From: Cystobacter fuscus
GTDB lineage: Bacteria > Myxococcota > Myxococcia > Myxococcales > Myxococcaceae
Assembly (NCBI RefSeq): GCF_002305875.1
Contig: NZ_CP022098.1
Span: forward strand, 3,224,001 to 3,288,000
Reading direction: 5' to 3'
DNA: 64,000 nucleotides
A program made the translations under genes and the position numbers. Each line of letters opens with the position of its first letter. Position 1 is the stretch's first letter. The notes below the pieces were generated by a model. It worked only from the letters and a program-made list of their open reading frames with translations, was not told the origin of the DNA and did not search any database. Positions 28,189 to 62,113 of the stretch are shown piece after piece.

Positions 28189-31100
28189 TCAGGTGAGCGG
28201 GAGCTCCAGCGTGGCCACGGCCCCCTTGCCGGGGCCCTCGCTCTCCAACGCCAGCCGCCCTCCCAATATCTGCGCCGCCAGCGCGCTCGAGTGCAGCCCG
28301 AAGCCGTGCCCGTCCTTGCGCGTGGTGAACCCGTGCATGAACAGCTTCTGTCGCGCCTCGGGAGCGATTCCCACCCCATTATCCATCACCTGGATGCGCA
28401 CCTGCTTCCCGTCCGACGTCAGCCGCACGCGCAGGTTGCGCGCTCCCTCGGGGCATGCGTCCAGCGCGTACTTCGCATTGCTGATGAGGTTGTTGAGGAT
28501 CTGCAGCACCTTGTGCTTGTCCACCATCAACCGGGGCAGCGGTGCCAGCTCCCGACGAATGGTCACGCCGTGGCGCTCGAGCGCCGCCGTCTGGATGCGC
28601 AGCGCGTCCTCGACGAGCTGCACGAGATCGCACTCCTCCGTCATCAGCGAGGTCTTGGCGTAGGTCTGCTGCACCTGGACGATGGCCCGGATGTGCTCGA
28701 TGTGCCGCCCCATCGCGTCCATGTCGTCCACCAGGCGCGTCTGCTGCGCCATCAACTCGTCCGCCAGCCCCGCCAGATACTCCGGCAGGTAGCCTCCGCG
28801 CGCGTTGGAAGCCAGGAAGCTCGACAGGTCCTCACGGTGCTCCAGCAGCAGGTTCGTGGCCCTCTTCAACCGGCCCAAACGCGAGGCCCCCACCGCCCGC
28901 TGCATCATCTCCAGGTTGATGACGGCGCTGGTGAGCACGTTGCCCACGTTGTGCAGCACGTCGGAGGCCACCTCCGCCATGCCCACCGCCCGCGCCGTGT
29001 CCACCAGCCGGGCCTGGGCCTGCCTCAGCTCGCGCGTGCGTTCCTCCACCCGCTGCTCCAGCTCGTCATTGGCCCGGCGCAGCTCCGCCTTGGCCCGCTG
29101 CACGTCCGCGTACAGCCGCGCGTTCTCGATGGAAATGGCCGCCTGCGAGGCGATGTGGCCCAGCAACACCAGGCGCGCGGGGCTGAAGGCATGGGGGGTC
29201 AGGTTGTTCTCCAGGTACAGCACCCCGGCGACATGGTCCTGGCGCATCAGCGGCAGGCACAGCACCGAGCGCGCCCCGCCACGCGCCAGATATTCGTCGG
29301 ACGAGAACGCATGGGGCTGGGAGGCATCCCCGATGACCAGCGGCTCGCGCGTCCGCCGGACATAGGCCAGCAGCGTCCACGGAAGCTCCCGGTCCGGGCC
29401 TTCACCCGACAGCACGGCGAGCTCGCCGGGTGACGCACGGGAAGAAGCCACCACCGAGAGCGCATCCCCGCTCGGCAGCAGCAGCGCTCCGGACTGGGCG
29501 CCCGCGTTCTCGATGGCCGCCTGCATCAGCGTGGTCACCAGCCGCTCCAGGACTATCTCCCCCGAGATGGCCTGCTGGGTCTTGACCACCGTGAGCGCGT
29601 CGATGCGCGTCGAGTCCGTGCTGCTGGTGCTTTCACTCGCGACGCCCGGCCCGGAAACGAGGTGCGGCCACCGGGCCGCCAGGTGCTGGGTCTTGCCCGG
29701 GGCGCCCCACTGCTGGTACGCCGCCCAGGCCTCGCGCGCGAAGGTATGGGCAACAAGAGGCGCCTTGCGCGTGCGCCAGTAGTTCGCCGCCAGCTCGTTG
29801 GCCAGCCCCAGGTACTGGGTGGCGCCACTCTCCCTCGCGGCCAGGATGGCCTCCTCGTAGCCTCGTGTCGCCTCATCGGGCCGTCCCGCGAGGCGGGCCA
29901 GCTCTCCGGACACCATGCGCTCGGGGGCGCGGAAGCTCTCGGGGCAGTGCTCCGCCCACTCCGCGAGTTGCTCCCGGTGGCGCTGGATGGCCTCGAGGAA
30001 CCGTCGCTGCTCCTCCGGCGGGGCCTCCTCGAGGAGCGCGGCCCGGGTGAGCGCCCCGTAGAGGTGGTATTCCCGCAGGATGATGGCGCCGTTCATGGAC
30101 CACACGAATCCGGCGGCCTTCTCCGCCGCGTCGAGGGCCTCCGCGTAGGCGCCGCACAGGAAGCGCGACTGGAGCTTGATGATCCAGTACCAGGCTTGCG
30201 TGGGGCCCATGCGACTGGACGCCATTCGGGCCTCGAGGGTCTGCTCGTCGATGCCGTCCCCACCCAACGTGTCGAACCGGAGCGTGCGCCCTCGCAGCTG
30301 CCGCATGAAGCACTGATAGATGAGGAGCAGATCCAGCGGCCCCTGGAGTCCGGCCTTGTGCAAGAAACCGCTGCGCGAGAGCGACTCCTCGTACACGTCC
30401 TCCACGTTGTGCCCCATGGCGAGGCGGTTCCAGAGGCTCGTGGTGCCGCAGTAGGAGGCGTTGTTGAAGTCTCCCGTTTCGAGCCCATGGTGGAAGGCCG
30501 CGAGGAGGAGTTCCTGAACAGCGGGGAGAGGCCTCGTGAAGTAGGAGATGCACTGCAGGCTCAGGAGCGCGGTCGTCCGCTGGGCGCGCAGGTCGTACCG
30601 CTCGACGAAGGCGAGGGCGAGCTGACTCAAGGCATGGCCTTCCCGGTAGCGCTTGAAGAACGAGCCGGTCAGCACCCCGAACCAGCCGAATCCCAGCACG
30701 ACGGACTCCGTGAAGCCGTGGCGAAGGGTGAGGGAGACCATCCGGGACAGGAGGAGCAGGAGCAGGTGGTTGTCGGTGACGTAGGCCGTCCCGAAAAACC
30801 CCGCCAGGGCGCTCATCAGCACCTTCATGTCCGGGTCGGTCATGGGCGGCAGTTCGATGAGGCTCTCGATGGAGCGCTCTCCTATCAGCGCCCACGCCTC
30901 GTCATGAGCGGCCACCACCTCCTCCAAGGTGGGGTGCGGTGACATGGGCATGCCCAGCAGCGCCATGCATTCCATCATGCATTGGACGGCCTCCTGGGCC
31001 TCACCCGAGGTGAACCAGCTATCCGCCATCAGGCAGAAGACGGCCGCGGTGTCCGCGCGGGTCCGCGTCTGGGAGCGGAGTTCGTTCGCCAGCTCACGCG

Positions 31101-33483
31101 CCCTGACGGCGTTGCCCATCAGGAGCTCGCATCGGGCGTGGGAGAGCCGCACCTTGAAGGCCAGCGCGGGGTCCGTCTCCCAGGGGTCTCCTGGAATGAG
31201 CGCGAAGGCCCCCTCGAGGTAGGTCGCGGCGGGGTGGTGCGCGACCGCGGCCTCGGCCTTCCAACCCGCCTCGGCGTTCAGTCGTGCCACCTGGAGACGC
31301 TCCGCGGGGTCCTCGATCAGCTCCACCCCCGCGTTGAGCTGGCCCACCACCTCGAAGATGGACTCACGCACCTGCTCCTGGGACAGGCTCCGCAGCAGCA
31401 GCCGGCCGACGCGCAGGTGGGTGGCCTTGCGCTCCGCTTCAGAGGTGAGGAGGTGGGCCGCCTGCTGGATCCGGTCGTGGAGGAAGCGGTACTGCTCCGG
31501 GCCCGCGCGAACCAGCAGGCCTTCCTGGAGCGCGGGTTCCATCCCCTGCTCCACTTCCACCACGTCCACCAGATGCGAGAGGGTGCCCAACATCGGGAGC
31601 GAGAAGCCATTGCCCACGCAGGCCGCCAGGCGCAGCAGGTGCTGGGTCCCGGGGGGGAGCTGGCGCAGCTTGCCCACCAGGAAGTCGACGACGTTGTCCG
31701 AGTAGCCCCGGGCCCGGACGCCTTCGGCGTCCCATCGCCACCCTTGCCCAGGCGAGCGGACCAGCAGGCCGTCCTGGCTCAGCGTCACCAGGAACTGAAG
31801 GAGGAAGAAGGGGTTGCCGCCCGTCTTCTCATGCACCAACTCCGAGAGGGGGGTGACCACCTCGGATCCCGCGCCTGGCAGCATATCCGTCACGAGCTGC
31901 GTCACCTGTGCCAGGCTCAGGGGCTCCAGCCGGAGGTCGGTGACCCGCGCGCCGGACTTGCGCACCTCATCCATCACCGGCACCAGCGGGTGCGTGGGGC
32001 TCACCTCGTTGTCGCGGTAGGCGCCGATCCACAGCACCGGAGGTGTCTCCGGCTGGGACAGCAATTGCTTGATGAGCTGGAGGCTGGCCAGGTCCGCCCA
32101 CTGCAGGTCATCCAGGAAGACCACGAGCGGGTGCTCGGCGCTGGCGAACACCCCCAGGAACTGGCGAACCACGCGATGGAAGCGGTGCTGCGCTTCGCCG
32201 GGGGGCAGTTCCTGGAGCGGCGGCTGCTTGCCCACCAGCACCTCCACCTGGGGAACCAGGTCGGCGAGCGCCTGCCCCTGGCCTTCCCATACCTGGCTCA
32301 GCCGCTCACTCCAGTGCCCAATCTCCTCCTCGGTTCTCGCCAGCACCTGCTGCAGCAGCCTGCGGATGGCGTGCGCCAGGGTGGCGTAGGGAACGTTTCG
32401 CTGGAACTGATCGAACTTGCCGTCCAGGAAGAAGCCACGCCGCCGCACCACGGGCTTGTAGAGTTCGCGCACCACCGAGGACTTGCCAATGCCCGAGTAG
32501 CCACTGACCAGGAAGAGTTCCGGCTGGCCGCTGTGGACCATGCGCTCGAAGCCCTGGAGCAGGGTGGAGATCTGGGCATCGCGTCCGTAGAGCCGCTGCG
32601 GCACCTGGAAGTGGTTGGGCGAGTCGTGAGTACCCAGCGTGAAGGCTTCCAGCGGCGCGTTCTGGCGCAGCCCCTCGCGGCAGCGCTCGAGGTCCGCCTT
32701 CAGTCCCTCGGCGCTCTGGTAGCGGTCCTCGGCGCTCTTGGCCAGGAGCTTCATCACGATGGACGACAAGGCCGGCGGCACCTGAGCGTTCAGCGCGTGC
32801 GGAGGCTTGGGGTTCTGGGCCATGTGCGCGTGGAACCACTCCAGCGCGTCGCGCCCCTGCAAGGGCAGCTGTCCCGTCGACAGCTCGTAGAGCGTCACAC
32901 CCAGGGAATAGAAGTCCGTCCGGTGGTCCACCGCCCGGTTCATCCGCCCCGTCTGCTCGGGCGACATGTACGCCAGCGTGCCCTCGATGAGGTGCGTGGG
33001 CGCGGCGTCCAGGTGCTCGACCTTCTGGATCGTGGCCACTCCGAAGTCGATCAAGCGAGCCTCACCGGACGGCTCGACGATGATGTTGGAGGGCTTGATG
33101 TCCTTGTGGATGACGTTGCGGTCGTGGACCTCCGCCAGGGTCGAGGCCAGGGAGAGGGCCAGGCGCAAGAACCGGGTGACCTCGAACGGCTGCCCCACGT
33201 GCTCGGAGAGCACCTCTCCCTGCACCCGCTCCAGCACCAGCAAGGGCCGCTCGTGGAGCCGCTCACAGGCATACGGTCGGGCCACGCCCCGCACCTCCTG
33301 GAGCTGCCGCAGGATTCCGAACTCCCGGCGGTAGCGCTCCTGCTCGCGCGGCCCCGGCGAGTGCGCCATCGGGGTCTTGATGATGACCGGTAGCCCATCG
33401 GCCTCACGCACGGCATGGAAGAGCACGTTCGAGCCCGTGGCTCGAATCGTCCCCAGAACCCGATAGCCTGGGATGTCCAACAT
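28189..33483 (-). CDS. Hybrid Ser/Thr kinase - AAA ATPase - GAF - histidine kinase (1764 residues)
   Basis: A giant signalling protein starting at the ATG at 33483 (MLDIPGYRVLG), eight bases after GAGGGG; the longer open frame upstream is not needed. In order: a Ser/Thr kinase-like domain (VIIKTP, HKDIKPSN near 128 with Lys for Arg, DFG, SPEQTGRMNR); an AAA/STAND ATPase (Walker A GYSGIGKSS near 331, Walker B VVFLDDLQWAD near 456); a long helical repeat region; a GAF domain near 1330-1450; a coiled coil; and a histidine kinase with phospho-acceptor in DVLHNVGNVLTS and a complete ATPase (ILNNLISNAKYAL, MDNGVGIAPEAR, GHGFGLH). It is cytoplasmic, with no membrane span. Ligand and partner are unknown. 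It is paralogous to the protein at 55301-61873. Confidence 0.92.
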   Translation of the reverse strand: MLDIPGYRVLGTIRATGSNVLFHAVREADGLPVIIKTPMAHSPGPREQERYRREFGILRQLQEVRGVARPYACERLHERPLLVLERVQGEVLSEHVGQPFEVTRFLRLALSLASTLAEVHDRNVIHKDIKPSNIIVEPSGEARLIDFGVATIQKVEHLDAAPTHLIEGTLAYMSPEQTGRMNRAVDHRTDFYSLGVTLYELSTGQLPLQGRDALEWFHAHMAQNPKPPHALNAQVPPALSSIVMKLLAKSAEDRYQSAEGLKADLERCREGLRQNAPLEAFTLGTHDSPNHFQVPQRLYGRDAQISTLLQGFERMVHSGQPELFLVSGYSGIGKSSVVRELYKPVVRRRGFFLDGKFDQFQRNVPYATLAHAIRRLLQQVLARTEEEIGHWSERLSQVWEGQGQALADLVPQVEVLVGKQPPLQELPPGEAQHRFHRVVRQFLGVFASAEHPLVVFLDDLQWADLASLQLIKQLLSQPETPPVLWIGAYRDNEVSPTHPLVPVMDEVRKSGARVTDLRLEPLSLAQVTQLVTDMLPGAGSEVVTPLSELVHEKTGGNPFFLLQFLVTLSQDGLLVRSPGQGWRWDAEGVRARGYSDNVVDFLVGKLRQLPPGTQHLLRLAACVGNGFSLPMLGTLSHLVDVVEVEQGMEPALQEGLLVRAGPEQYRFLHDRIQQAAHLLTSEAERKATHLRVGRLLLRSLSQEQVRESIFEVVGQLNAGVELIEDPAERLQVARLNAEAGWKAEAAVAHHPAATYLEGAFALIPGDPWETDPALAFKVRLSHARCELLMGNAVRARELANELRSQTRTRADTAAVFCLMADSWFTSGEAQEAVQCMMECMALLGMPMSPHPTLEEVVAAHDEAWALIGERSIESLIELPPMTDPDMKVLMSALAGFFGTAYVTDNHLLLLLLSRMVSLTLRHGFTESVVLGFGWFGVLTGSFFKRYREGHALSQLALAFVERYDLRAQRTTALLSLQCISYFTRPLPAVQELLLAAFHHGLETGDFNNASYCGTTSLWNRLAMGHNVEDVYEESLSRSGFLHKAGLQGPLDLLLIYQCFMRQLRGRTLRFDTLGGDGIDEQTLEARMASSRMGPTQAWYWIIKLQSRFLCGAYAEALDAAEKAAGFVWSMNGAIILREYHLYGALTRAALLEEAPPEEQRRFLEAIQRHREQLAEWAEHCPESFRAPERMVSGELARLAGRPDEATRGYEEAILAARESGATQYLGLANELAANYWRTRKAPLVAHTFAREAWAAYQQWGAPGKTQHLAARWPHLVSGPGVASESTSSTDSTRIDALTVVKTQQAISGEIVLERLVTTLMQAAIENAGAQSGALLLPSGDALSVVASSRASPGELAVLSGEGPDRELPWTLLAYVRRTREPLVIGDASQPHAFSSDEYLARGGARSVLCLPLMRQDHVAGVLYLENNLTPHAFSPARLVLLGHIASQAAISIENARLYADVQRAKAELRRANDELEQRVEERTRELRQAQARLVDTARAVGMAEVASDVLHNVGNVLTSAVINLEMMQRAVGASRLGRLKRATNLLLEHREDLSSFLASNARGGYLPEYLAGLADELMAQQTRLVDDMDAMGRHIEHIRAIVQVQQTYAKTSLMTEECDLVQLVEDALRIQTAALERHGVTIRRELAPLPRLMVDKHKVLQILNNLISNAKYALDACPEGARNLRVRLTSDGKQVRIQVMDNGVGIAPEARQKLFMHGFTTRKDGHGFGLHSSALAAQILGGRLALESEGPGKGAVATLELPLT

Positions 33484-33797
33484 GAAGATGTCCCCTCGCG
33501 AGAAGCGGTCTGGACCTAGAGAATCGATATGACCGTACAGGCATGCCGGAAGGTCCAGGTTTAACACCGACCCCTGCTGGGACACCCCCATCTCCTGAGC
33601 CCTGAGCGCCCTGACCAGACCACAGCCCTTCGGTGTGCCTGGCAGGATGCTGGGTTCGCGAGCCCGGGTAATTGGTCCGTGGAAGGGAGCCCCCGCTCTC
33701 CTACACGGGCATGGGCTCCAAAGGGGTTCCAACAAAGACGTCAACATCGACGTGCACGTGCGGAAGATCCAGCGAACGGACGTAAGGGGCTGCGCGG
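33484..33797. other. Intergenic region without a recognisable gene
   Basis: About 310 bases between the hybrid kinase start and the decayed phosphotransferase gene. It should contain the kinase promoter. The kinase frame stays open through it but has no good start. I see no repeat or terminator. Confidence 0.4.
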
Positions 33798-34727: not shown

Positions 34728-36477
34728 AACACCGACCGATTTGATTTTTTAGTAAAATCAGGGATTTACGTGAGGGGGTGGACAACAGGGGCTGAATTTG
34801 ATCAGGTCGGCACATGACCTTAGCCGTCAGTCCGCCGAAGGTGACCGGAGAGATAGCTCGATGGACTCCTCCGCGGGAGTTGAACGAGCAAGAGCAACAG
34901 ATTGTCGAACGGATGAGCCGTAACGGCAAGCTGTTCGCTTTTCTGCGTCTGAATCGGCACAAGCTGATGGATGAGGCTTTTCAGGCGGAACTGGCCTCCA
35001 TGTACCGCCAGACAGGAGCAGGGAAAGTGGCTATAGCACCCGGGCTGATGGCAATGGCAATACTCTTACAGGGATACATGGGAGTGTCGGATGCCACCCT
35101 GGTGGAACTGACGGTCTTCGACTTGAGAGTGCAGATGGTGTTGGGCTGGTTGGGTCACAGCGAGCCGGCGTTCTCCCAGGGCTCGTTGTATGAGTTTCGT
35201 CAGCGGCTGATGAGAAACCAAATGGACCGGCGCCTCCTGGAGAAGACAGTCGAGGTGGCGCGGGAACAGAAAGAGTTCGGTGAGCGAAAGCTCAAGACGC
35301 TGTTGCGAGTGGCGATTGACTCAAAGCCACTGGAGGGAGCTGGCCGGGTAGAGGACACCATCAACCTGGTAGGACACGCAGCGCGCAAGGTGATGATGTG
35401 CGTGGCGAAGCTGCTGGGATGTTCCAAGCAGCAGGCCTGCCGAGAGGCGGGTATTCCCTTGTTGTTGGAAAAAAGTATCAAGAAGGGATTGGATGTGGAC
35501 TGGAGCGAAGCGGGGCAGAAAAAGAAAGCGCTGCAAGCCCTGCTCGAGCAAGTGGAAAGCATGATGTCCTGGCTAAGAAAGAATCTGGCAGAGGAGATGG
35601 AAGAGGAGCCTTTGAGGGAACACGTTCAGACTCTCGAGCAGATTCGCAAGCAGGACCTGGAGCCGGACCCAGAAGGAGGAGGTGTCCGCGTTCGCCAGCA
35701 AGTGGCGGAAGAGAGACGAGTGTCGGTAGAAGATGGGGAGATGCGTCATGGACGCAAGAGCAAAAGCAAGCGCTTCAACGGATTCAAGCAGCATGTGGCC
35801 ACGGCGCTGGACGAAGAACTCATCCTGGCATGTGCTGTGACGCCCGCCAACCGACCTGAAGCGGAGGCAACACCGGCGCTTGAGAAGGACATGGAGAAGC
35901 AAGGAGTGAAGATTGACGAGTTACACATAGACCGGGGGTATATCAACAGCAGTATCGTGGACAGCGTGCTCGAGGAGGGAGGGGAAGTGCTGAGCAAGCC
36001 GTGGAAGGCACGCAATGGGGAGTTGTTCGCGAAGTCAGACTTCAAAATAGATATGCGAAGCCGGACCATCACGTGTCCGGAGGGGAAGACAATGCGCTTC
36101 GAACTGGGAAAGACAGTCGAATTCGCGACAAAGGACTGTGAGACTTGTCCATTGCGCGAGAAATGTACACAAGCCCAGATAGGACAAGGACGGACTGTGG
36201 CAATCAGTGAAGATGAAGCGCTCCAGCACAAGTTGCGCAAATTAATGAAGACACCTGCTGGGCGAGAGCGACTCAGGAAGCGAGTAGGGGTGGAACATCG
36301 ACAAGCCCATATAGCGCGACGACAGGGGCGTCGTGCGCGCTATCGGGGCGTGCGTAAGAACGTCTTTGATCTACGACGTGCGGCCAGCATCCAGAATTTG
36401 GAGACATGGCAACGCCATCTAGAGTTGTCCCAGCAGCAGGTGGGATGATGTGGTTTTTAAATCGGTCGGTGTTCTAG
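34724..36477 (+). mobile_element. IS1182-family insertion sequence (about 1.75 kb)
   Basis: The element is bounded by perfect 19-bp inverted repeats, CTAGAACACCGACCGATTT at 34724-34742 and its complement at 36459-36477. The outermost CTAG may be a duplicated palindromic target. It encodes one intact transposase. Lower GC and different codon use from the neighbours mark it as acquired. It is inserted directly beside a MITE-like element and the broken rph gene. Confidence 0.85.
34814..36448 (+). CDS. IS1182-family transposase
   Basis: A 544-residue intact DDE transposase. The N-terminal DUF772-like part (LASMYRQTGAGKVAIAPGLM, then ILLQGYMGVSDATLVEL) is followed by the catalytic core. Candidate catalytic Asp residues lie in VAIDSKPLEG and LHIDRGYI. 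HGRKSKSKRFNGFKQHVATA is a family hallmark, and a Cys-rich zinc-like segment (TKDCETCPLREKCTQ) comes before the C terminus. It starts 72 bases inside the left inverted repeat. No frameshift is seen, so the element may be mobile. Codon use is clearly less GC3-biased than that of the host genes. Confidence 0.93.
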   Translation: MTLAVSPPKVTGEIARWTPPRELNEQEQQIVERMSRNGKLFAFLRLNRHKLMDEAFQAELASMYRQTGAGKVAIAPGLMAMAILLQGYMGVSDATLVELTVFDLRVQMVLGWLGHSEPAFSQGSLYEFRQRLMRNQMDRRLLEKTVEVAREQKEFGERKLKTLLRVAIDSKPLEGAGRVEDTINLVGHAARKVMMCVAKLLGCSKQQACREAGIPLLLEKSIKKGLDVDWSEAGQKKKALQALLEQVESMMSWLRKNLAEEMEEEPLREHVQTLEQIRKQDLEPDPEGGGVRVRQQVAEERRVSVEDGEMRHGRKSKSKRFNGFKQHVATALDEELILACAVTPANRPEAEATPALEKDMEKQGVKIDELHIDRGYINSSIVDSVLEEGGEVLSKPWKARNGELFAKSDFKIDMRSRTITCPEGKTMRFELGKTVEFATKDCETCPLREKCTQAQIGQGRTVAISEDEALQHKLRKLMKTPAGRERLRKRVGVEHRQAHIARRQGRRARYRGVRKNVFDLRRAASIQNLETWQRHLELSQQQVG

Positions 36478-44231: not shown

Positions 44232-44552
44232 CGTGGAGCGGAGTCTACACGAGCCGGTGCACGCTCCCCAACGGGTACACCCCCGCCAGCCGACCGGAGA
44301 GGCTCCCGCTCCAGAGGAGCGCCATGCCGCCCGACGCCTCGCCTGCTGCAAACGCCACCCCACCGCCACTGGCGTATAAGAAGGATGGGAGGCCTGTTGA
44401 GGGAGTGGGCTGGTGCAGAGAGGTCTCGCGTATAGGCGGAATGGGGGCGATGTGGAGGGAGGGGGCTGGAGCCGCCGACGCCCTCTCCCATCACATCAGG
44501 CAGCGCGACCAGGCCCTTCACGCAGTGCCTGTGCCATCCGACGGGCGGAGGA
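44232..44552. other. Intergenic region downstream of the NRPS operon
   Basis: About 320 bases between the small membrane protein start and the P450 stop. It should hold the promoter of the membrane protein and the end of the NRPS transcript. I see no clear hairpin, and the short open frames are unsupported. Confidence 0.4.
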
Positions 44553-45752
44553 CTACCAGGTGACCGGCAATTCGTGGGCGCCGATCAGGTTCTCGTCCTT
44601 CTTGAAGCGAATCTGCTCCAGGGGTGCAGCCAGTCGCAGGTTCGGGATGCGCCGGAACAGGGTGTGGAATGTCACCTCGAGCTCGATGATGGCGAGCGTG
44701 CGACCCGTGCAGAGGTGGATGCCGTGGCCAAAGGCGAAATTGCGATAGGGCTCGCGGTGGACGTCCAGGCGGTCCGGCTCCGGGAAGACTGTCTCATCGC
44801 GGTTGGCCGAATCCGGTTGGGCGAGGACGCCTTCTCCGGCGCGGATGAGCTGGCCACCGATGGTGACATCTTCCGTGGCGGCGCGTTGCCGCCCCATATG
44901 AGAGACGGTGACGTAGCGCAGGAGTTCCTGGACGGCGGCGGAGAGTGCGTCTGGCGTCTCCAGGGCGCGGAACCTGTCGAGCTGGTCCGGGTGGAGCAGC
45001 AGGGCCAGCACGCCCATTCCCACCATGTACCCGGACGGTCCGTGCCCGGCGTAGAACAGCGCGTGGAACATCGCGGTGGCGTCCGGCACGCTCAGCCTTC
45101 CCGGCTGCACGTGCTCGGCCACGACGCGACCCACGAGCGTGTCGGTGGGCTCGCGCAGGTTCTCCTCCACCAGCCGTCGGAAGTAGGTATCCAGCTCGTC
45201 CAGGGCCTTCTCGGCCACCTCGCGCGACGAGGCGCGGGAGCCAATCGTGCGGCTGATGACGTGCAGGCGGTCGGCGTCCTCTCGGGACACGCCGAGCAGA
45301 TCGCAGATGACACGCATGGATACGGGAAGCGCGAAGGCGGAGATCAGGTCGGCCGGCCGGGGCCCGGCCAGCATCGCGTCGAGGACCTCGTCGACGGTCT
45401 GCTGGATTCTCGGGCGCAGGGCCTCCATCCGTCGTGGTGCGAACTCCGGTACGAGCATGGCCCGCTGCGCCCGGTACTCCGCCTCGGGAAGAAACGGGAA
45501 GGGGAGGGGCCGACTCTGGCGGGCCGCGGAGGCGGGCGACGTGTGAGGAAACCCAGGCAGCGAGGAGTCCAGGCTCAGCCTCGGGTCACCCAGCGCCGCG
45601 AGGACGTCCTCGTAGCGGGTGATGAGCCACGGCGTGTTGCCGTCCCACGTGCGAACGGGGCACACCGGAGCCTCCTTCCTCAGTCGCTTGTACTCGGGGG
45701 GAGGGTCCAGGGGATGCTGCCAGTCTTTGGGCAATGGATAGGAATCGGTCAT
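44553..45752 (-). CDS. Cytochrome P450 of the NRPS operon
   Basis: A 399-residue bacterial P450 starting at the ATG at 45752, which overlaps the stop of the C-T protein by four bases. The haem-binding motif FGHGIHLCTG has the Cys ligand near residue 344, and the ExxR motif is ELLRY. The I-helix reads FYAGHGPSGYM. The usual acid-Thr pair after AG(x) is replaced by Gly-Pro-Ser, so oxygen activation must differ or the enzyme does something other than ordinary hydroxylation. Its place after a protein ending in a carrier domain suggests that it acts on a carrier-bound amino acid or peptide. It is the last gene of the operon. Confidence 0.92.
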   Translation of the reverse strand: MTDSYPLPKDWQHPLDPPPEYKRLRKEAPVCPVRTWDGNTPWLITRYEDVLAALGDPRLSLDSSLPGFPHTSPASAARQSRPLPFPFLPEAEYRAQRAMLVPEFAPRRMEALRPRIQQTVDEVLDAMLAGPRPADLISAFALPVSMRVICDLLGVSREDADRLHVISRTIGSRASSREVAEKALDELDTYFRRLVEENLREPTDTLVGRVVAEHVQPGRLSVPDATAMFHALFYAGHGPSGYMVGMGVLALLLHPDQLDRFRALETPDALSAAVQELLRYVTVSHMGRQRAATEDVTIGGQLIRAGEGVLAQPDSANRDETVFPEPDRLDVHREPYRNFAFGHGIHLCTGRTLAIIELEVTFHTLFRRIPNLRLAAPLEQIRFKKDENLIGAHELPVTW

Positions 45753-47259
45753 CGTGATGCTCCAGTTCGCTCGAGCCGAGCGGCGGCTCCCGCCGCGGTG
45801 GGGTTCTGGTACAGCTCTCGCAACCCAAGGTCGCGCCCCAGCTCGGTACGGACTCGGGCCGCGACGTCGATGAGTTGTAGGGAATGGCCGCCGAGGCGGA
45901 AGAAGTCGTCGTGGGGGGCGACCGCTGTGACCCCCAGCACGTCGGCGAAGATGCGGGTGAGGCGCTGTTCGGTCGTGGTGTGAGCCGGCCGCAGGCTCGA
46001 CAGAGGCACCTCCGGAGCCGCGGCGCGCAGGACCTCCTCGTACGAGGTCAGCAGGTCGTCGATGAAGGAAGCGTCGAACAGGCTCTCGTCGAACTCGGCC
46101 CAGACGGTACACGTGCCGTCGCCGCGGTCCTCGACGCGAAGGGTGAGCTCGAACTTCGCCGTGGGGAGATCCCACCGTGGCTCGGTGACCGTGCAGCCAT
46201 GCAATCCCAGCACGCCGGCCGTACCGGTCGGATGGTAGGCGAAGTTGACCTGGACGACGGGCGACCGCGTCGGATCTCTCGGGGGTGCGAGGTCGGCGAC
46301 GAGCTGCTCGAAGGGCAGGTCCTTGTGGGCGTACGCGGCGGCCGTGGCCTCGGATACCCGCGCGAGCAGCTCGCGGAAGGTCGGGTTGCCGCGCAGGTCG
46401 ACCTGCAACACCACGGTGTTGACGAAGAAGCCGAGCACTCGCTCGACCTCGGGCAGGTCCCGGTTGGCCACGGCCAGGCCCAGCAACACCTGTTGCCGGC
46501 CCGCGTGGCGCCCGAGGACGACGCCGCAGGCGGCGGACAGCACCGTGAACACCGTCTGCCGCTCGGCGCTCGCGAAGGCATGTACCGCCGAGGTGAGCTC
46601 GGCGGAGAGAACCCGGTGCATGCGCCGGCCTCGTCCCAGCGCGGGGCGGGGCGAGACCAGGTCGAGCACGAGGGGAATCCCGGACAGTCGCTGCCGCCAC
46701 CAACGCGACAACTCCGCGCGCCGCGCTTCGGTGAGTTGCTCGCGCTGCCAGTCCGCCCAGTCCACGTACTGCACGGGAAGCTCGGGAAGCGTCGTGGGCG
46801 CTCCGGTGACGGCCGCCTGATAGGCGATGGCCAGTTCCTCGAAGAAGACCTGCTGCGACCAGCCATCGGCCACCAGCAGGTGAACGAAGAACACGAGGAG
46901 GTGCGTCTCCGGCTCCACCCTGTGCACGGCGAGCCGCAGCAGCGGCCCGTGCTCGAGGTCGAACGGCTGGGACACCAGGGCTTCGGCGTGACGCAGCGCC
47001 TCGGCTTCGGTCGCCACGTCCACCACCCGCATGTCCCCCCGGGCCTGCTTCAACACGTGCTGGTGCGTCCCGAGTGGGAAGACGGTCCGCAACGGCTCGT
47101 GCCGGGCCACCAGCGCCTCCAGGGTTGTGCGCAGGTGCTCGGTGTCCAGCGGCCCCGTCACGCGGAAGCAGCGGGCCGAGCTGTGCGCGGCTCCCGTCGG
47201 GTCGACCCGGTGCAGGAAGCACAGGCGCTGCTGTGCGAACGACATGGGAAACGCGTTCG

Positions 47260-47263
<4 letters not shown>
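45749..47263 (-). CDS. NRPS condensation-like plus carrier didomain protein
   Basis: A 504-residue protein starting at the ATG at 47263, overlapping the upstream NRPS stop by four bases. Residues 8-430 form a condensation-type domain (AQQRLCFLHRVDPTGAAH, PELPVQYVDWADWQREQL, VLGFFVNTVVLQVDL). The catalytic HHxxxDG motif is HLLVADG, so the second, catalytic His is replaced by Leu. The C-terminal carrier domain is complete, with its Ser in FFRLGGHSLQLID near residue 461. There is no adenylation domain. The degenerate domain may release or cyclise the product, or serve as a docking platform for the following P450, as the X domain of glycopeptide NRPSs does. Confidence 0.9.
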
Positions 47264-52404
<5,141 letters not shown>

Positions 52405-52679
52405 CGATGTCTCCTGCGGGTCATCTGGAGCGCGACTGCCGCGGCGAGCATCGACCCGGCGGTCTGGTTGGGCGCGGACCGTAGTAGCACGCGGGCTCTG
52501 ACCGGCGCCGAGCGTGTGGCTCGGGCAGTGGTCTACAGCCCTATCGTCACGGTTCTTGCGCATGAGAGGGAGGGGGCCCTGTTGAGGGTTGAGGGACTTG
52601 CGGGCGGGCCTGTCCAACGGCTGCAACCGCGCTACCACGCCGTCCTGCCGGCGGTAGCGCCGCGTCCCGAGGCGGCGCC

Positions 52680-55300: not shown

Positions 55301-58300
55301 CTAACCGGTAACGCCGTCCTCGCCCGGGGCTGATGGAGTCCCGGACCACTTCAGCGAGGACGCGTCCCCGGCCGCCTTCGACAACGGCGTTCGTTGGCTC
55401 CCGCTGGCGCTCCGAGGGAACTCGACGAAGAAGGTCGTCCCCACCCCGGGCTCGCTCTCCAGCCAGATTCGCCCGGCGTGTGCCAGGACGATCTCCCGCG
55501 CGATGAAGAGCCCGAGGCCGAGCCCACCGTAATTGTGCGAGGCCGCGCGTTCGAACAGCTCGAAGATCCTCGACTGGTCCTCCTTGGGAATCCCGAGCCC
55601 GCGATCCTCGACCCGCAACAGCGCCTTGTCTTCCTCGCTCCACACCTTCATCCGGATGGGGTGACGCGCTCCGTACTTCATGGCATTGGTCAGCAGGTTC
55701 GTCACCACCTGCTCGAGGCGAAACCTGTCCCACTCTCCAACCACCGATAGCTCGAGCTCCAGTTCGAGCGTGCAGCCGGCTTTCTCGAGCTGCTCGGCGA
55801 GGCGCTCCGTGACCTCTCGCGCGACGGCGGAGAGGTCGGTCTCTTCCAAGTGCAGCTCGAGCCGCCCCGTGTTGATACGGGAGACGTCGAGGAGCTGATC
55901 GACCAGTTGGACCAACCGCTTCATCTGGGCACCGAAGGTGGCGAGCATGCTCGCCACCTTGCAGCGGAGCTGCGGCTCCAGGAGTTGATGGGCGAGGGCG
56001 AGTTCCACCTGCCGGGCGCGCAGCCCCATGGAGGTCAGGGGGGTCTTGAGTTCGTGCGAGGCGATCGACAGGAACTCGTCCCTCACGCGAATGGACTCCT
56101 GGGCCTTGCGGTAGAGCAGGGCATTGTCGATGGCGAAGGCCGCTCGGCGTCCCAGCTCCTCCGCCAGGGCCAGGTCGGCCGGACCATGGACCCGGCGCGA
56201 CCGCGTGGAGAGCAGTGACAGCACGCCGAGGCAACGCCCCCTCGCCCAGAGCGGCACGCAGATGAAGGATTGGCCCTCCAGTCCCTTCAGTGCGTTCCAC
56301 CGCGCCTCCTCCGGAATGGGCTGCCCCAGGAGCCCGCGCCTTCCCGGGAAGGCCTCCGGCTGGCCGGTGCGGAGCACCTGATGGGGGCCGGTCGAAGCGT
56401 TGGCATCCAGGGGATGATGATGGAGGAACTCGCGCACGCGCTCGGCTCGAGCTGGGACGACATCGGCCACCGCCACCGGCCGGCGCTGTCCGCTCTCGTG
56501 GAGCGCGAAGACGATGCACAGCTCGGCCAGCCTGGGCACCGCGAGTCCGGCGATGCGCTGGAAGGTGGTTTCGTAGTCGAGCGAGGTCACCAACTCCCTG
56601 CTGGCCTCGGCCAGGAAACGCTCCGCCACTTCCATCCGCTTCCGCTCGGTGATGTCCGTGGCGATGGTGCAGATGGCGTGGGGGGCCTCGGCCGCGTCCG
56701 CGAGGGGAAACTTGACGGAGAGGTACGTATGCGGGCCGTCTGCCTGGTGCACCTCTTCCTCCCATTCCAGCGGCCTGCCCGCTTCGAGCACCTCGAGATC
56801 ATGGGCGCGGGACTGCGCCGCCCGCTCCTTCGGAAAGACCTCGCCGTCGCGCTTGCCGATGAGCCGTTCCGGCTTGATTCCGAAGAGGCTCTCGAAGCGC
56901 CGGTTGACCAGGAGGAAGTGCCCCTGGGTGTCCTTGATGGAGACGAGCGCGGGAGTGTTGTCGATGATCGACTGGAGCTGGTGCTGGCTTCTGCGCAGCG
57001 TCTCCTCCGCCTCCTTGATGTCGGTCACGTCGCTGACGACGACGACCCCGCCTCGCGGGGTGCCCTGGTCGTCCTTGAGCGGGCGGGCGGACACGAGCAG
57101 CCACGTCCCCTCCGGCTTCGTGGAGTGGCGCATGAAGAGCTCCACCCTGTCCACGGCCTCGCCCCGGATGGCCCGGGCGAGCGGCAGCTCCTCGGATGGA
57201 TAGGGGGTGACCTGGTCGTGCAGATAGATGCCGTAGTACTCCGACCATTGCCTGAGGGGCGTGTCGGTCAGACCGATTCCCAGGACCTGCTCCGCCGCCG
57301 GATTGAAGAGCACGAGCCGTCCGTGCTCGTCCGCGACCACCACGCCCTCTCCCATGTTCGTGAGGATGGACTGGAGGAGTTGCCTCTCGGCGTGGAGCGC
57401 CTGCTCGGAGCGGGCCAGCGCCGCCGCCCGCTCCGAGGCGGCTGCCTCCGCCCGCTCGCGCTCCCTGCTCTCCTCCCGCACTTCGGAATAGAGCCTGGCG
57501 TTCTCGAGGGAGATGGCGGCCTGGGCGGCCAGCAGATCGAGCGTCGCCATCCGGTCCTCGGAGAAGGCGTGGCTCGCCAGATCGTTCTCCAGGTACAGGA
57601 GCGCCACCAGCGCTCCCTGCCTCAAGATGGGCAGACACAGCGCGGAGCGAGGCAACCGCGAAGCGCCGGAGCCGTCCACGCCGAACAGCGCCGGGGCGGA
57701 CGAGTCCCCCAGGATGAGTCGCTCCCGGGTCCGCTTCACGTAGTTGACGACGGCTTGGGGCGGAGCCCAGGCCGAGGGCCCCGGAGGGAAGAGCCGGACC
57801 ACGACCTCTCTCTTGTCGAGCCGCGCCTCGGCGCTGATGGACAGGTCCTCTCCCCGGCGCAGCATCAGCAAGCCCCTCTCGGCACCCGCCTGCTCGATGA
57901 GGACGCGCATCAAGGTCTCCAGGAGCCGCTCCAGCACGATCTCACCGGAGATGGCCTGCGAGGCCTTCATCACCGAGAGCAGGTCCAATTGTTCCGTACG
58001 CGCCGTGACCGTGGCGGTGATGGGGAGCGCCGGCCGCTCCAGCAGGTTCGGGTAGCGCTCGTCCAGCGTCCGGACCTTCCCGTCGGCCCCCCAGCACTCG
58101 TAGCAGGCACGGGCCTTGCGCAGATAGGTGTAGGCGAAGTCCTCGAATCCCCGCTGGAGATAGAACCGGGCGGCCAGCTCGTAGGAGAGGCCCTCGTTCT
58201 GGGTGAAGCCGTTGTCCCGCGCCGAGCGGATTGCCTCCTCATACGAGTGCATGGCCTCCAGGTCCCGGCCAAGGAGGCGGGCGATCTCCGCCGACACCAG

Positions 58301-61300
58301 CGCATGGGTGTTGGAGAAATTCTCCGGACAGTTCGCCGCCCACTCCTGGAGCTGCCGCTGGTGGGTGGCGAGCATCTCCAGGCGACGCGCGCGTTCATCG
58401 GGAGGAACCCTGTCATGGCAGGCGGCCAGGGAGAGCGCGGCGTAGAAGTGGTAGTCGTGAACCTGGATGAGTGAGAGGATTGCCCACAGGCGCTTCTTCG
58501 CCCGGGACGCCGCCACGAGGGCCTTCTCGTAATCGTCTGACATGAAGAAGGCCTGGAGCTCGAGGATGTGGTACAGGCAGACCCTCATGCTCAGCCGGTT
58601 CGCCGACGGCTGGACCTCGAGTTCCTCCCGGTTGATGCTCTCACCCGTGGCGGTCGAGAACCCCTGGGTGAGGCCTCGCATGCTCCGGATGAAGCATTGA
58701 ATGTTGACGAGGGCCTCTTCGACATCCTGGAACCTGGCCTTGCGCACGTAGTCCAGCCGCACCTCGGTCTCGCGATAGACCTCGCTCAGTGGAACTCCCT
58801 GGGAGAGTTGCGCCGCGATGACGTTCTCGCAGCCGTAACAGGAGATGGTGACGTCACCCGTTTCGGTGCCTGTCTGGAACGCGGTCTGGAGATAGCCGAA
58901 ATCCTCCCGGAGCGGACGGCACCAGTGGGAGATGAACGCCATGGCGTGATTGACCTTGGCTTTGTATGCGAGGAAGTGATGTGTGTCGACGAGGTCGCAG
59001 GCCAGCCTTCCGAAGCGGTAGCCGTCCTCGTAGCGGTGGAAGGCGGAGCCCAGGATGAGGCCGAAATAGGCATAACCGTGGGGCGAGGCGTCGGTGGTGC
59101 CCTGGCGAAGGCTGATATTCACCATGTGGCACAGGTGGAGGTAGTACAGGTTGTGGTCCGTGAAGTAGGCCGGGGCGAACAAGGTCGACAGCACCCGCAT
59201 GACGGTCTGTACCTCGGGGTCCATCACGAGGGGCAGACCGAAGAGCTCCTCGATGTGACGGCCGCCCAGGTTCGCCCAGACCTGCTCGTATTCCGCCTCG
59301 ACCTCACTCCAGTCCGGATGGGGGGTCATGTGGATGCCAAAGAGCGCGAGACACTCCAGGGAGAAGTCGACGGCTCTCGCGTTCTCCGCTCTGGTGACAT
59401 GGAGTTCGATCAACACGCGATAGACCATGGCCTTGTCGGCCCGCGTCCGGGCCCGCTCGAGGACCCCGATGAGCAGCCGCTCCGCCTCTTCGATGCCGCC
59501 ACTCAAGAACTCACACTCCGCCAGCTCCTCGTGCAACGCATACGTCAGCGCGTATTGGTCTTCCCAGCAGCGCTCGGAGAGCAGCATCACGCCGGCGGAC
59601 AGGTACTTGATGGCGGAGCGGTAGGCGGTGGAAGCCTTGGCCTTTCTTCCGGCCTGGAGGTTGAGCGCCGCGAGCCGCTCCTTCTCCTCGAGCGAGACGA
59701 CTCCGGAGATACCGCGGTTGAGCTGGTCCACCACGTCGAAGATCCTCTCCTCGATTTCCGCTGGTGAGAGCTGGGCCAGCAGGAGGCGGCCACTTCGCAG
59801 GTGTACCGTGCTTCGTTGGTCCTCGGGGATGAGTGAATAGGCCGCCTGCTGGACCCGGTCGTGAAGGAATCGATAGGAATCCCCGATGCGCAGCATCAGC
59901 CCTTCCTTGACGGCTTCCCACATCTCCCGGTGGAGCTCCTCCTCCGCTTGACCGCGAATCACCGCGAGCAGCCGCGCCTCGATGTGGTCGCCGATACTGG
60001 CGGTGAGCATCAACACGTTCTGGGTAGTCACCGGGAGGCGCTTCAGCCTCGCCACCATCAGCTCGACGACGTTGTCCGTATAGCTCTTGGCGCGAATCCG
60101 GGCGATGTCCCACCGCCACACCGCCGCCGTTCGATCCAACTCCACCAGACCCTCCTGATAGAGCATCGTCAGGAATTGGGTGACGAAGAAGGGGTTTCCC
60201 TGTGTCTTCTCCTGGATGAGCCGGGTCAACGGATGGGTTTGGAATGGCTCCTGATGCAGGGTGTCGGCGACGAGCAGATTGAGGTGCTCGAGCGAGAGCG
60301 GCGAGAGGACGAGCTCGTTCACGACCGCCCCCGCCTTGCGGATCTCGCTCAAGGTCAGCATCAAGGGGTGGGAGGAACTGACCTCGTTGTCCCGGTAGGC
60401 TCCAATCACCAGGAGGTGCCGGGTCTCCGGATGGGTGATGAGGTGTTGGATCAGCCGGAGGCTGGCGGCATCGGCCCACTGGAGGTCATCCAGGAAAAGA
60501 GCCAACGGGTGCTCCTTCCGGGTGAACACCCCCAGGAACTTCTGGAAGACCCGATGGAAGCGGTGCTGCGCCTCGAGCAGCGGCAGTTCCTGGGTGGGTG
60601 GCTGCCCGCCGATGATGAGTTCTATCTGGGGAACGATGTCGACGATGAGCTGCCCATCGAGCCCCACGGCCGACTGGAGCCGCTGTCTCCAGTCGGCGAT
60701 CCGCTCTTCGTCCTCGGTCAGGAGTTGCTGCACGAGTTCGCGGAAGGCCTGGGAGAGCGTGGCGTAGGGGGCGTCACGTTTGAACTGGTCGAACTTGCCC
60801 GAGAGGAAGAGCCCCTTCGCCTTCGCGAGGGGCCCGTACAGCTCGCGCACCAGCGAGGACTTGCCGATGCCGGGGTATCCCGAGACGAGCATCAGCCCGG
60901 GGGCTCCGCTGGAGACGACTCGCGCCAAGGCGTCCATCAGCGCGGCGACCTCCTCCTCGCGGCCATAGAGCTTCTGCGGAATCAGGAAGCGTTCCGAGAC
61001 ATCATGCGCACCGAGTGGAAAGGGCGCGATGGAACCCCGTGCCTTCCACTGCTCGAGACACCTCTCCAGGTCGGACATCAGCCCCAGCGCGCTCTGGTAG
61101 CGCTCCTCGCCCATCTTGGACATCAGCTTGAGGACGATCCGGGAGAGCACCTCGGGGACCGCGGGGATGATGTCGGAGGGGCTCGGTGGAGACCGGGCGA
61201 CGTGGCAATGGACCCAGCCCAGGAGATCCTCGGCGTGGAAGGGCAAGGTGCCGGTGAGCATCTCGAAGAAGGTGACCCCCAGCGAGTACAGGTCGCTGCG

Positions 61301-61873
61301 GTAGTCGACGGCCCGGTTCATCCTTCCCGTCTGCTCGGGAGACAGGTAGGGAAGAGAGCCTTCGATGAACCGGGGGTTCTGCACTCCCTGGTACTCACGG
61401 GGGAGCAACGAGGCTCCTCCGAGATCCGTGAGCTTCACCTCTCCCGTGTCGGGGTGGACGAGGATGTTGTGGGGCTTGATGTCCCGGTGGGCGACACCGT
61501 GGCGATGGAGCTCGGCGAGGGCCTGGGTGATTCGGGTGGCGAGTTCGAGGAAGCGCCCGGGCTCCATGGGAACGCCGAGGAAGTGCGCGAGGGGATGGCC
61601 ACCAAAGTCTTCCAGGATCAGCACCAACCGATCCCTGTTGCGCTCCAGACTATACGGCCTCACCGCCGCCGCGCCCCCCACCCGCCTCCCCATCTCATAC
61701 TCACTTCTCAACCGCTCGAGGTCTCGGAGGGTTGGATGCTCGGTGCGAGGCGTCTTGAGGATGACCGGCCGCCCATCCCGTTCCCGTAACGCGCGGAATA
61801 TGACGGTCGAGGATCCTTCCCGAATCGTTTCGGTGACGGTGTATCCCTGGAGGACCTGCGGACCGAGCGGCAT
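55301..61873 (-). CDS. Hybrid Ser/Thr kinase - AAA ATPase - GAF - PAS - PAS - GAF - histidine kinase (about 2190 residues)
   Basis: The start at ATG 61873 (MPLGPQVLQGYTVTETI) matches the start of the paralogue at 33483; an ATG 11 codons upstream is possible and neither has a clear Shine-Dalgarno. Domains: kinase (VILKTP, HRDIKPHN near 128, DLG instead of DFG, SPEQTGRMNR); AAA/STAND ATPase (GYPGIGKSS near 328, FLDDLQWAD near 461); a long helical region to about 1320; GAF1 (1324-1457); PAS1 (1500-1615); PAS2 (1628-1745); GAF2 (1757-1928); HisKA with FLSIASHELKTPLTS near 1941; and HATPase (EQVVTNLLTNAMKYG, VEDRGLGIPKED, GGLGLGLFIAREIV). The histidine kinase is a canonical type, unlike that of the paralogue. 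It is soluble, probably integrates several small-molecule or redox inputs, and has no cognate response regulator nearby. Confidence 0.92.
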   Translation of the reverse strand: MPLGPQVLQGYTVTETIREGSSTVIFRALRERDGRPVILKTPRTEHPTLRDLERLRSEYEMGRRVGGAAAVRPYSLERNRDRLVLILEDFGGHPLAHFLGVPMEPGRFLELATRITQALAELHRHGVAHRDIKPHNILVHPDTGEVKLTDLGGASLLPREYQGVQNPRFIEGSLPYLSPEQTGRMNRAVDYRSDLYSLGVTFFEMLTGTLPFHAEDLLGWVHCHVARSPPSPSDIIPAVPEVLSRIVLKLMSKMGEERYQSALGLMSDLERCLEQWKARGSIAPFPLGAHDVSERFLIPQKLYGREEEVAALMDALARVVSSGAPGLMLVSGYPGIGKSSLVRELYGPLAKAKGLFLSGKFDQFKRDAPYATLSQAFRELVQQLLTEDEERIADWRQRLQSAVGLDGQLIVDIVPQIELIIGGQPPTQELPLLEAQHRFHRVFQKFLGVFTRKEHPLALFLDDLQWADAASLRLIQHLITHPETRHLLVIGAYRDNEVSSSHPLMLTLSEIRKAGAVVNELVLSPLSLEHLNLLVADTLHQEPFQTHPLTRLIQEKTQGNPFFVTQFLTMLYQEGLVELDRTAAVWRWDIARIRAKSYTDNVVELMVARLKRLPVTTQNVLMLTASIGDHIEARLLAVIRGQAEEELHREMWEAVKEGLMLRIGDSYRFLHDRVQQAAYSLIPEDQRSTVHLRSGRLLLAQLSPAEIEERIFDVVDQLNRGISGVVSLEEKERLAALNLQAGRKAKASTAYRSAIKYLSAGVMLLSERCWEDQYALTYALHEELAECEFLSGGIEEAERLLIGVLERARTRADKAMVYRVLIELHVTRAENARAVDFSLECLALFGIHMTPHPDWSEVEAEYEQVWANLGGRHIEELFGLPLVMDPEVQTVMRVLSTLFAPAYFTDHNLYYLHLCHMVNISLRQGTTDASPHGYAYFGLILGSAFHRYEDGYRFGRLACDLVDTHHFLAYKAKVNHAMAFISHWCRPLREDFGYLQTAFQTGTETGDVTISCYGCENVIAAQLSQGVPLSEVYRETEVRLDYVRKARFQDVEEALVNIQCFIRSMRGLTQGFSTATGESINREELEVQPSANRLSMRVCLYHILELQAFFMSDDYEKALVAASRAKKRLWAILSLIQVHDYHFYAALSLAACHDRVPPDERARRLEMLATHQRQLQEWAANCPENFSNTHALVSAEIARLLGRDLEAMHSYEEAIRSARDNGFTQNEGLSYELAARFYLQRGFEDFAYTYLRKARACYECWGADGKVRTLDERYPNLLERPALPITATVTARTEQLDLLSVMKASQAISGEIVLERLLETLMRVLIEQAGAERGLLMLRRGEDLSISAEARLDKREVVVRLFPPGPSAWAPPQAVVNYVKRTRERLILGDSSAPALFGVDGSGASRLPRSALCLPILRQGALVALLYLENDLASHAFSEDRMATLDLLAAQAAISLENARLYSEVREESRERERAEAAASERAAALARSEQALHAERQLLQSILTNMGEGVVVADEHGRLVLFNPAAEQVLGIGLTDTPLRQWSEYYGIYLHDQVTPYPSEELPLARAIRGEAVDRVELFMRHSTKPEGTWLLVSARPLKDDQGTPRGGVVVVSDVTDIKEAEETLRRSQHQLQSIIDNTPALVSIKDTQGHFLLVNRRFESLFGIKPERLIGKRDGEVFPKERAAQSRAHDLEVLEAGRPLEWEEEVHQADGPHTYLSVKFPLADAAEAPHAICTIATDITERKRMEVAERFLAEASRELVTSLDYETTFQRIAGLAVPRLAELCIVFALHESGQRRPVAVADVVPARAERVREFLHHHPLDANASTGPHQVLRTGQPEAFPGRRGLLGQPIPEEARWNALKGLEGQSFICVPLWARGRCLGVLSLLSTRSRRVHGPADLALAEELGRRAAFAIDNALLYRKAQESIRVRDEFLSIASHELKTPLTSMGLRARQVELALAHQLLEPQLRCKVASMLATFGAQMKRLVQLVDQLLDVSRINTGRLELHLEETDLSAVAREVTERLAEQLEKAGCTLELELELSVVGEWDRFRLEQVVTNLLTNAMKYGARHPIRMKVWSEEDKALLRVEDRGLGIPKEDQSRIFELFERAASHNYGGLGLGLFIAREIVLAHAGRIWLESEPGVGTTFFVEFPRSASGSQRTPLSKAAGDASSLKWSGTPSAPGEDGVTG

Positions 61874-62113
61874 ATCAAGACGGTAACAACTCTTCCTGAG
61901 CACCATGCCGCGGTGGGCGTGCCGTTGCCCAACAGGGAGGGTCTCGTGCAGGGGGTCCCATCCTCGCGCCCCGCCTGGTCGTGAGCACTCAGGTCCGGGA
62001 CACGGCCATGGGAAGAGTCCGCAGGCGCTCGCGTTCCTCGGAGGAGAGCGGATCCTCCCCGCGCAGGAAGTGCTCCAGATGCCTCACTCACTCGCCCGCA
62101 TGAAACGGCGCGG

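Follow-up and report, generated by a model that had tools for sequence, protein, structure and literature searches.

The question raised by a condensation domain without its second histidine

What can a condensation (C) domain do when the residue held to be catalytic is missing from its core motif? This question is raised by a small gene in the window, by which we mean the whole 64,000-nucleotide stretch of the Cystobacter fuscus genome analysed here (contig NZ_CP022098.1, positions 3,224,001 to 3,288,000). The gene encodes a couplet made of an altered C domain, here called C*, and a carrier domain, T3, and it lies between the genes for a two-module nonribosomal peptide synthetase (NRPS) and a cytochrome P450 (Table 1). 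C domains share the motif HHxxxDG, in which the second His is the residue held to be catalytic. At this place C* has Leu129, and the first His (H128), the Asp (D133) and the Gly are retained.

A sequence-only reading of this region had pointed to the missing His, to the intact C domain of the neighbouring NRPS, to the lack of an adenylation (A) domain in the couplet protein and to the P450 directly downstream. It had proposed a role other than condensation, be it P450 recruitment as by X domains, product release, cyclisation or another reaction on the carrier-bound peptide. All four observations held up. Pfam and a domain scan found no A domain in the C*-T protein, so T3, whose Ser461 is present, has no A domain in its own module, and Pfam found no thioesterase in any of the cassette proteins.

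Table 1. Features of the three-gene cassette (positions in the window; residues are those of the C*-T protein)
Feature	Position	Strand	Evidence or detail
Three-gene cassette (NRPS, C*-T, P450)	44553..52404	-	7.9 kb
NRPS, A-T-C-A-T, no thioesterase	47260..52404	-	Pfam, domain scan
Carrier T1 (LGGHS)	50530..50745	-	
HHVVHDG, intact motif of the NRPS C domain	50059..50079	-	both His in 12/12 cassette copies
Insertion of about 30 aa in the NRPS C domain, before its last strands	49210..49314	-	12/12 copies
Carrier T2, unusual LGMHS (motif 47416-47442)	47308..47523	-	12/12 cassette copies
C*-T couplet gene	45749..47263	-	ATG start, 504 aa; ORF and Pfam; ATGA overlap with both neighbours
Condensation domain PF00668 in C*-T	residues 4-433		Pfam, 258 bits
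HLLVADG core motif of C*	46862..46882	-	residues H128-L-L-V-A-D133-G
Carrier T3 of C*-T, PP-binding PF00550	residues 433-496; 45776..45967	-	Pfam; Ser461 (phosphopantetheine) in GGHS
Cytochrome P450, 399 aa	44553..45752	-	PF00067, 76.8 bits against a cut-off of 22.8
P450 I-helix motif AGHGP	45036..45050	-	acid and alcohol replaced by Gly-Pro

The NRPS probably starts at the TTG at 52404, as inferred from an upstream GGAG and from the end of homology; the longest open reading frame begins with a GTG at 52638. The loop that holds the insertion in its C domain is 47 residues long in 14 of 14 cassette C domains and does not exceed 22 in the other C domains where it could be measured (n=58). The GMHS of the second carrier, T2, was not seen in any of the T domains surveyed from outside the cassette (n=285, of which 36 have no recognised motif). 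The protein ends in a short tail, IKRLPRA (47263-47283, minus strand), that is similar in most copies and may possibly serve in docking to C*-T.

Among the cassette copies the code of the first A domain (A1) is nearly constant (DAFVMTGVAK and close variants) and that of the second (A2) is variable; read at the usual code positions, neither code could be assigned to a nameable amino acid. With A1 nearly constant and A2 varying between strains, the codes suggest a family of related products that have one residue in common and differ in the other.

The leucine is fixed across the copies of the couplet

The C*-T protein is present in 27 of 195 genomes of the phylum, from 5 of 90 genera, in a total of 28 copies (E values up to 1e-110). 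Leu stands at the place of the second His in all 27 full-length copies (HLLVADG in 18, HLLAADG in 8 and HLLTADG in 1), with CTG or CTC as the codon wherever codons were read (nine further copies). The loss of the His is therefore real, and a sequencing error at this codon is ruled out. The full-length copies contain no internal stops and all have the carrier Ser of T3 (GGHS in 26, GGQS in 1). Upstream of C*-T an NRPS ends in 27 of 27 cases, and a P450 lies downstream in 26. The exception, genome G146 (locus L234), has the NRPS and C*-T without a P450 downstream, and no P450 orthologue was found elsewhere in that genome, where the best identity is 33 % among the matches listed. The couplet has thus been retained at least once independently of the P450.

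Two peptide patterns were also scanned against 84,980 genomes of bacteria and archaea, a search that misses relatives with neither peptide and possibly leaves out near relatives of the window's own copy. Of the 184 relatives, the 80 best were kept, from 78 loci; 13 of these have 70-96 % identity, all of them myxobacterial and overlapping with the 27 copies from the phylum, and the others are at or below 39 %. We also surveyed 292 domains of the C superfamily, drawn from the window's own genome and from GTDB loci, with 30 of the 292 from cassette loci. Leu is found in 14 of 14 cassette couplets and nowhere else in this set. The second His is missing from five other domains (Q in one, S in one, A in two and G in one), which are cases of other letters or poor alignment, and it is present in all 144 domains labelled LCL by their position, 12 of which come from cassette loci.

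One explanation for a C domain without this His would be the decay of a lost module, leaving a remnant with no role. A second cassette copy in genome G003 (locus L081, contig C70) would fit such decay: about 169 residues of C*, the motif among them, are missing in frame, and the carrier and the P450 are still there, although an assembly fault is possible. Against decay, the 27 other copies are full length with open frames, and dN/dS over the C* domain is 0.25-0.52 against eight divergent copies (dS about 0.5-0.65; the L082 row and the near-identical L032 row are left out of this set). By this measure of its codons, the C* domain is under purifying selection. The dN/dS values and the open frames speak against decay as the main reading, and we consider it very unlikely.

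C* is LCL-like and its active site appears remodelled

Phylogenetic placement, the check that the sequence-only reading had proposed, puts C* among the LCL domains and beside the C domain of the cassette NRPS (C1). Pairwise identity of C* to non-cassette domains does not exceed 42 %, with the top values for LCL domains, and mean identity is 35 % to LCL (n=132), 25 % to DCL (n=16) and 25 % to E-like domains (n=9). A FastTree phylogeny of 158 domains gathers the couplet domains in one group (support 100) that lies among LCL domains next to cassette C1 (SH-like 95). With IQ-TREE and 58 domains the couplet group is recovered at 100/100 and joins cassette C1 at 87/95, a value short of the tool's threshold on a join where both branches are long; this reading leaves out one L091 row that belongs to another NRPS than the cassette's. 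The trees hold no fungal release domain and no X domain sequence. C domains that are active with a shifted His were not found near C*. Since C* groups next to cassette C1, it probably began as a copy of the cassette NRPS's own, LCL-like C domain and lost its His afterwards.

The predicted fold of C*-T has a mean pLDDT of 88.8 with 69 input sequences (61 when only 11 close sequences were supplied). It matches the PCP-C didomain 8g3j (Z 44.8, 32 % identity) and, nearly as well, the X domains 4tx2, 4tx3 and 6m7l (Z 40.6-42.1, with 4tx2 at 42.1), so that the fold does not discriminate between LCL and X domains. The fungal release-domain structure TqaA is not among the 50 matches listed in either fold comparison, which says nothing either way.

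To what extent has the domain changed? In 58 other C domains, conservation reaches 95 % or more in 45 alignment columns, 31 of which are kept in all 11 couplets compared. H128 and D133 are present in all 69 domains, and His129 in 58 of 58 non-couplet domains. The changes Trp15 to Cys, His129 to Leu, Ile130 to Leu and Met240 to Thr are found in 11 of 11 couplets, and residue 135, the Trp that follows HHxxxDG, is relaxed to Trp, Cys or Ala. The changes at Trp15, Ile130 and Met240 rule out Leu129 as the sole altered conserved place. A small set of fixed changes, several of them in or near the motif, together with a conserved core, indicates that the active site of C* is remodelled rather than broken, with the core mostly kept.

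The LCL-like character of C* in tree and fold would also suit a domain that still condenses. T3 would then be loaded in trans by A1 or A2, and a tripeptide would be released by a thioesterase from outside the cassette. Precedents are described for both parts of such a scheme: one A domain serves two carriers in mannopeptimycin synthesis (PMC8949500), and a C domain with HQxxxDM is active, mutation of the second His not always abolishing activity (PMC11546977). We nevertheless think continued condensation distinctly unlikely, given that Leu is fixed in 27 of 27 copies whereas all 144 domains labelled LCL have His, and that the cassette has no thioesterase.

Far less likely still is a dehydrating or other substrate-modifying C domain of the CmodAA type. 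Some members of that type are described as lacking one His, and corallorazine-type clusters also have a P450 (PMC11342130). The [K/R]SVLLAAH signature, matched by 4 non-cassette C domains, is found in 0 of 27 couplets at up to two mismatches, and AmbE CmodAA (7r9x) matches the predicted C* fold with Z 39.3 and 23 % identity, below 8g3j.

The P450 lacks the usual proton-relay pair

The cassette P450 has the heme Cys loop FGHGIHLCTG and an ExxR motif (ELLRY). All 12 cassette P450s read [AT]GHGP at the I helix and thus have neither the acid nor the alcohol of the proton relay. At the place of the Pro, P450s of the same genome have Thr in 24 rows and Ser in 1 (the alignment has 25 rows, drawn from 30 loci among 63 matches, and two of the rows are apparently the same gene). 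The best solved relative is CYP105Q4, and the three alignments listed for solved P450s show an ordinary AGHETT I helix. CypX, which acts on cyclo-Leu-Leu, is described as having an unusual Pro where the conserved alcohol would stand (PMC7731078). This likeness between the sequences is a lead, not proof. Against TIGR04538, an NCBIfam family of cyclodipeptide-synthase-associated P450s, the cassette P450 scores 102.3 bits, far below the curated cut-off of 500.

With a P450 behind C*-T in 26 of the 27 copies, the couplet might be a presentation platform, where C* would shift the dipeptide onto T3 and bring in the P450 there in the manner of an X domain, the ring closing spontaneously later. X domains are described as likewise without the catalytic His (PMC6565677, PMC8949500), and they are among the matches of the predicted C* fold. 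In addition, a fungal A-T-C-A-T synthetase is described to form a diketopiperazine without any couplet (PMC11942691). If such a synthetase cyclises unaided, C*-T is perhaps dispensable for cyclisation, and a platform gains weight.

Other evidence speaks against recruitment of this kind. The motif has Leu and not the Arg of X domains, and the carrier comes after C* and not before it. X-domain partner P450s have PxDD at the start of the F helix. After LLGV, the 12 cassette P450s read PYDD in one case, SRED, PHDG and PRED in two each, and PHDS, SYDD, SQDD, SHDD and PHED in one each, so that strict PxDD is found in 1 of 12, by pattern and not by structure. Finally, genome G146 retains C*-T without an orthologous P450. 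The X-like recruitment proposed in the sequence-only reading thus fits poorly, and we regard a presentation platform as an unlikely, if still serious, explanation.

The cassette appears to be a mobile unit

The three genes are the only content common to all 12 copies from 11 genomes, in a comparison of flanks that used crude ORF and codon-bias gene calling. The end of C*-T meets the start of the P450 in 11 of 12 copies. The end of the NRPS meets the start of C*-T exactly in 8 of 12, and the other 4 alignments stop 1-6 residues short; from these alignments the gene overlaps within the cassette look kept. Flanking genes mostly differ among copies. Some are common to pairs (the window and G003, G001 and the second copy of G003, G030 and G010), G046 and G032 also have some in common and are from two genera, and a hybrid-kinase family is present in four of the cassette loci. 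The SDR and LysR neighbours in the window were considered as part of the unit and rejected, being common only to G003, the closest relative among the copies compared.

In Pyxidicoccus caerfyrddinensis (locus L082) the DNA is 96.9 % identical over 44548-52433 of the window (megablast), and the rest of the window has no match outside this block in the 21.8 kb of L082. The rpoB genes of the two genomes are 90.9 % identical, and a cassette closer than rpoB points to transfer between genera. For the congeners G002, G001 and G003, identities of rpoB and of the cassette are 96.2 and 72.5 %, 98.2 and 76.4 %, and 98.8 and 98.8 %, respectively. Taken together, these comparisons make it most likely that the cassette moved between genera as a unit, with ends that lie about at the ends of the three genes. 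The three genes alone being shared and having been transferred, the cassette is likely sufficient for a product, and with so few genes it can be expressed whole.

Elsewhere in the window, about 8 kb from the cassette, an open reading frame at 34814-36448 (plus strand) resembles a transposase gene. Two very large genes at 55301-61906 and 28189-33747 (both minus strand) presumably encode hybrid Ser/Thr-kinase, ATPase and histidine-kinase regulators. The protein of the former has 74 matches in its own genome.

A proposed best explanation: dipeptide hand-over and diketopiperazine release

The fixed Leu, the absence of an A domain and of a thioesterase, and purifying selection make a non-condensing role likelier than a condensing one. 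Of the roles suggested in the sequence-only reading, release or cyclisation is the best match, since the cassette read as a whole reproduces GliP's domain order, A1-T1-C1-A2-T2-C2-T3 (PMC9030297). Genome G146, with the NRPS and C*-T but not the P450, also counts in its favour. Cyclisation of the dipeptide by GliP is described as catalysed by its terminal C-T3 couplet (PMC11610984). By analogy we tentatively favour, while stopping short of calling it probable, the reading that the cassette is a self-contained pathway in which C*-T takes over a dipeptide for diketopiperazine release and the P450 oxidises it.

According to this reading, the NRPS, whose domain content is observed, would build a dipeptide on T2, and the separate C*-T protein would dock there. 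C*, no longer joining amino acids, would pass the dipeptidyl group to the A-less T3, or hold the dipeptide in a position from which the dipeptide's amine can close the diketopiperazine ring, or both. The missing His would suit an intramolecular reaction that has no acceptor and needs positioning, not a base. The P450 without the usual proton-relay pair may then oxidise either the T3-bound dipeptide or the released ring. Release without a thioesterase would follow from the cyclisation itself.

Several observations weigh against hand-over and release. C* falls among LCL domains, albeit in trees without a fungal release domain. Fungal release C domains are described as keeping the His in HxxxDxxS (PMC11546977), unlike C*. 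The second copy in G003 appears to keep its carrier and P450 although the C* motif is lost, and the P450 score far below the TIGR04538 cut-off does not suggest that family.

A more specific version would cast the cassette as a bacterial equivalent of the fungal GliP, divided between genes and moving horizontally. In it, a duplicate C domain without a base would act as transacylase or cyclisation chaperone, the dipeptide would sit on an A-less carrier, and a P450 free of acid and alcohol would oxidise it before or during diketopiperazine closure. We put this forward as speculative and rather doubtful in its entirety. If true, it would show how a dipeptide can leave a bacterial two-module NRPS that has no thioesterase.

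What the second His of C domains does is described as a matter of continuing debate (PMC11546977). A whole clade without this His, a domain under selection and an intact paralogue in the same pathway form a natural pair for testing that role.

Comparison with known systems

C* shares with LCL condensation domains the C-superfamily fold and the place in the tree, and differs from them in having neither the second His nor an A domain in its own module. The Cy domain motif DxxxxD is not seen in C*, which reads HLL[VAT]ADG.

The cassette has the same A-T-C-A-T-C-T order as GliP, with a last carrier that is likewise A-less. GliP is fungal and a single polypeptide, whereas the cassette is bacterial and spreads the order over two genes. 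The HxxxDxxS of GliP-type couplets is not found in C*. The sole His of the C* motif stands five residues before the Asp and is therefore the first His, not the second.

The X domains of glycopeptide-antibiotic synthetases are likewise LCL-related, have the second His replaced and work beside a P450. They read HRxxxD, against HLL[VAT]ADG in 27 of 27 cassette couplets. An X domain follows the carrier that bears the peptide, whereas C* opens its protein, with T2 on the preceding one. Their synthetases also differ from the cassette with respect to the thioesterase, which the cassette is without.

HtmB2-CT of the hangtaimycin synthetase (PDB 8z0q) is the second-best PDB sequence match of C* and is 31-32 % identical by structure. 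Like C* it departs from HHxxxDG, with both of its His replaced (aligned PWGIFDG), and unlike C*-T it sits in a large PKS/NRPS line. No function for it was found in the hangtaimycin papers searched. CypX (CYP134A1) has the Pro for the I-helix alcohol in common with the cassette P450, a likeness of one residue; its pathway is that of pulcherriminic acid in Bacillus.

Two named clusters were considered and set aside. The coralinone cluster (CorA, A-T-C-A-T-KS-AT-ACP-TE) is, as described, a different gene set, and the corallorazine cluster, as described, does not have the cassette's gene set. No description of the three-gene cassette was found among the matches listed in the open-access literature, at the level of titles and abstract openings. 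The families of all its parts are known; what is new is their combination, in which a two-module NRPS is followed by a C-T couplet without the His and by a P450 with Gly-Pro.
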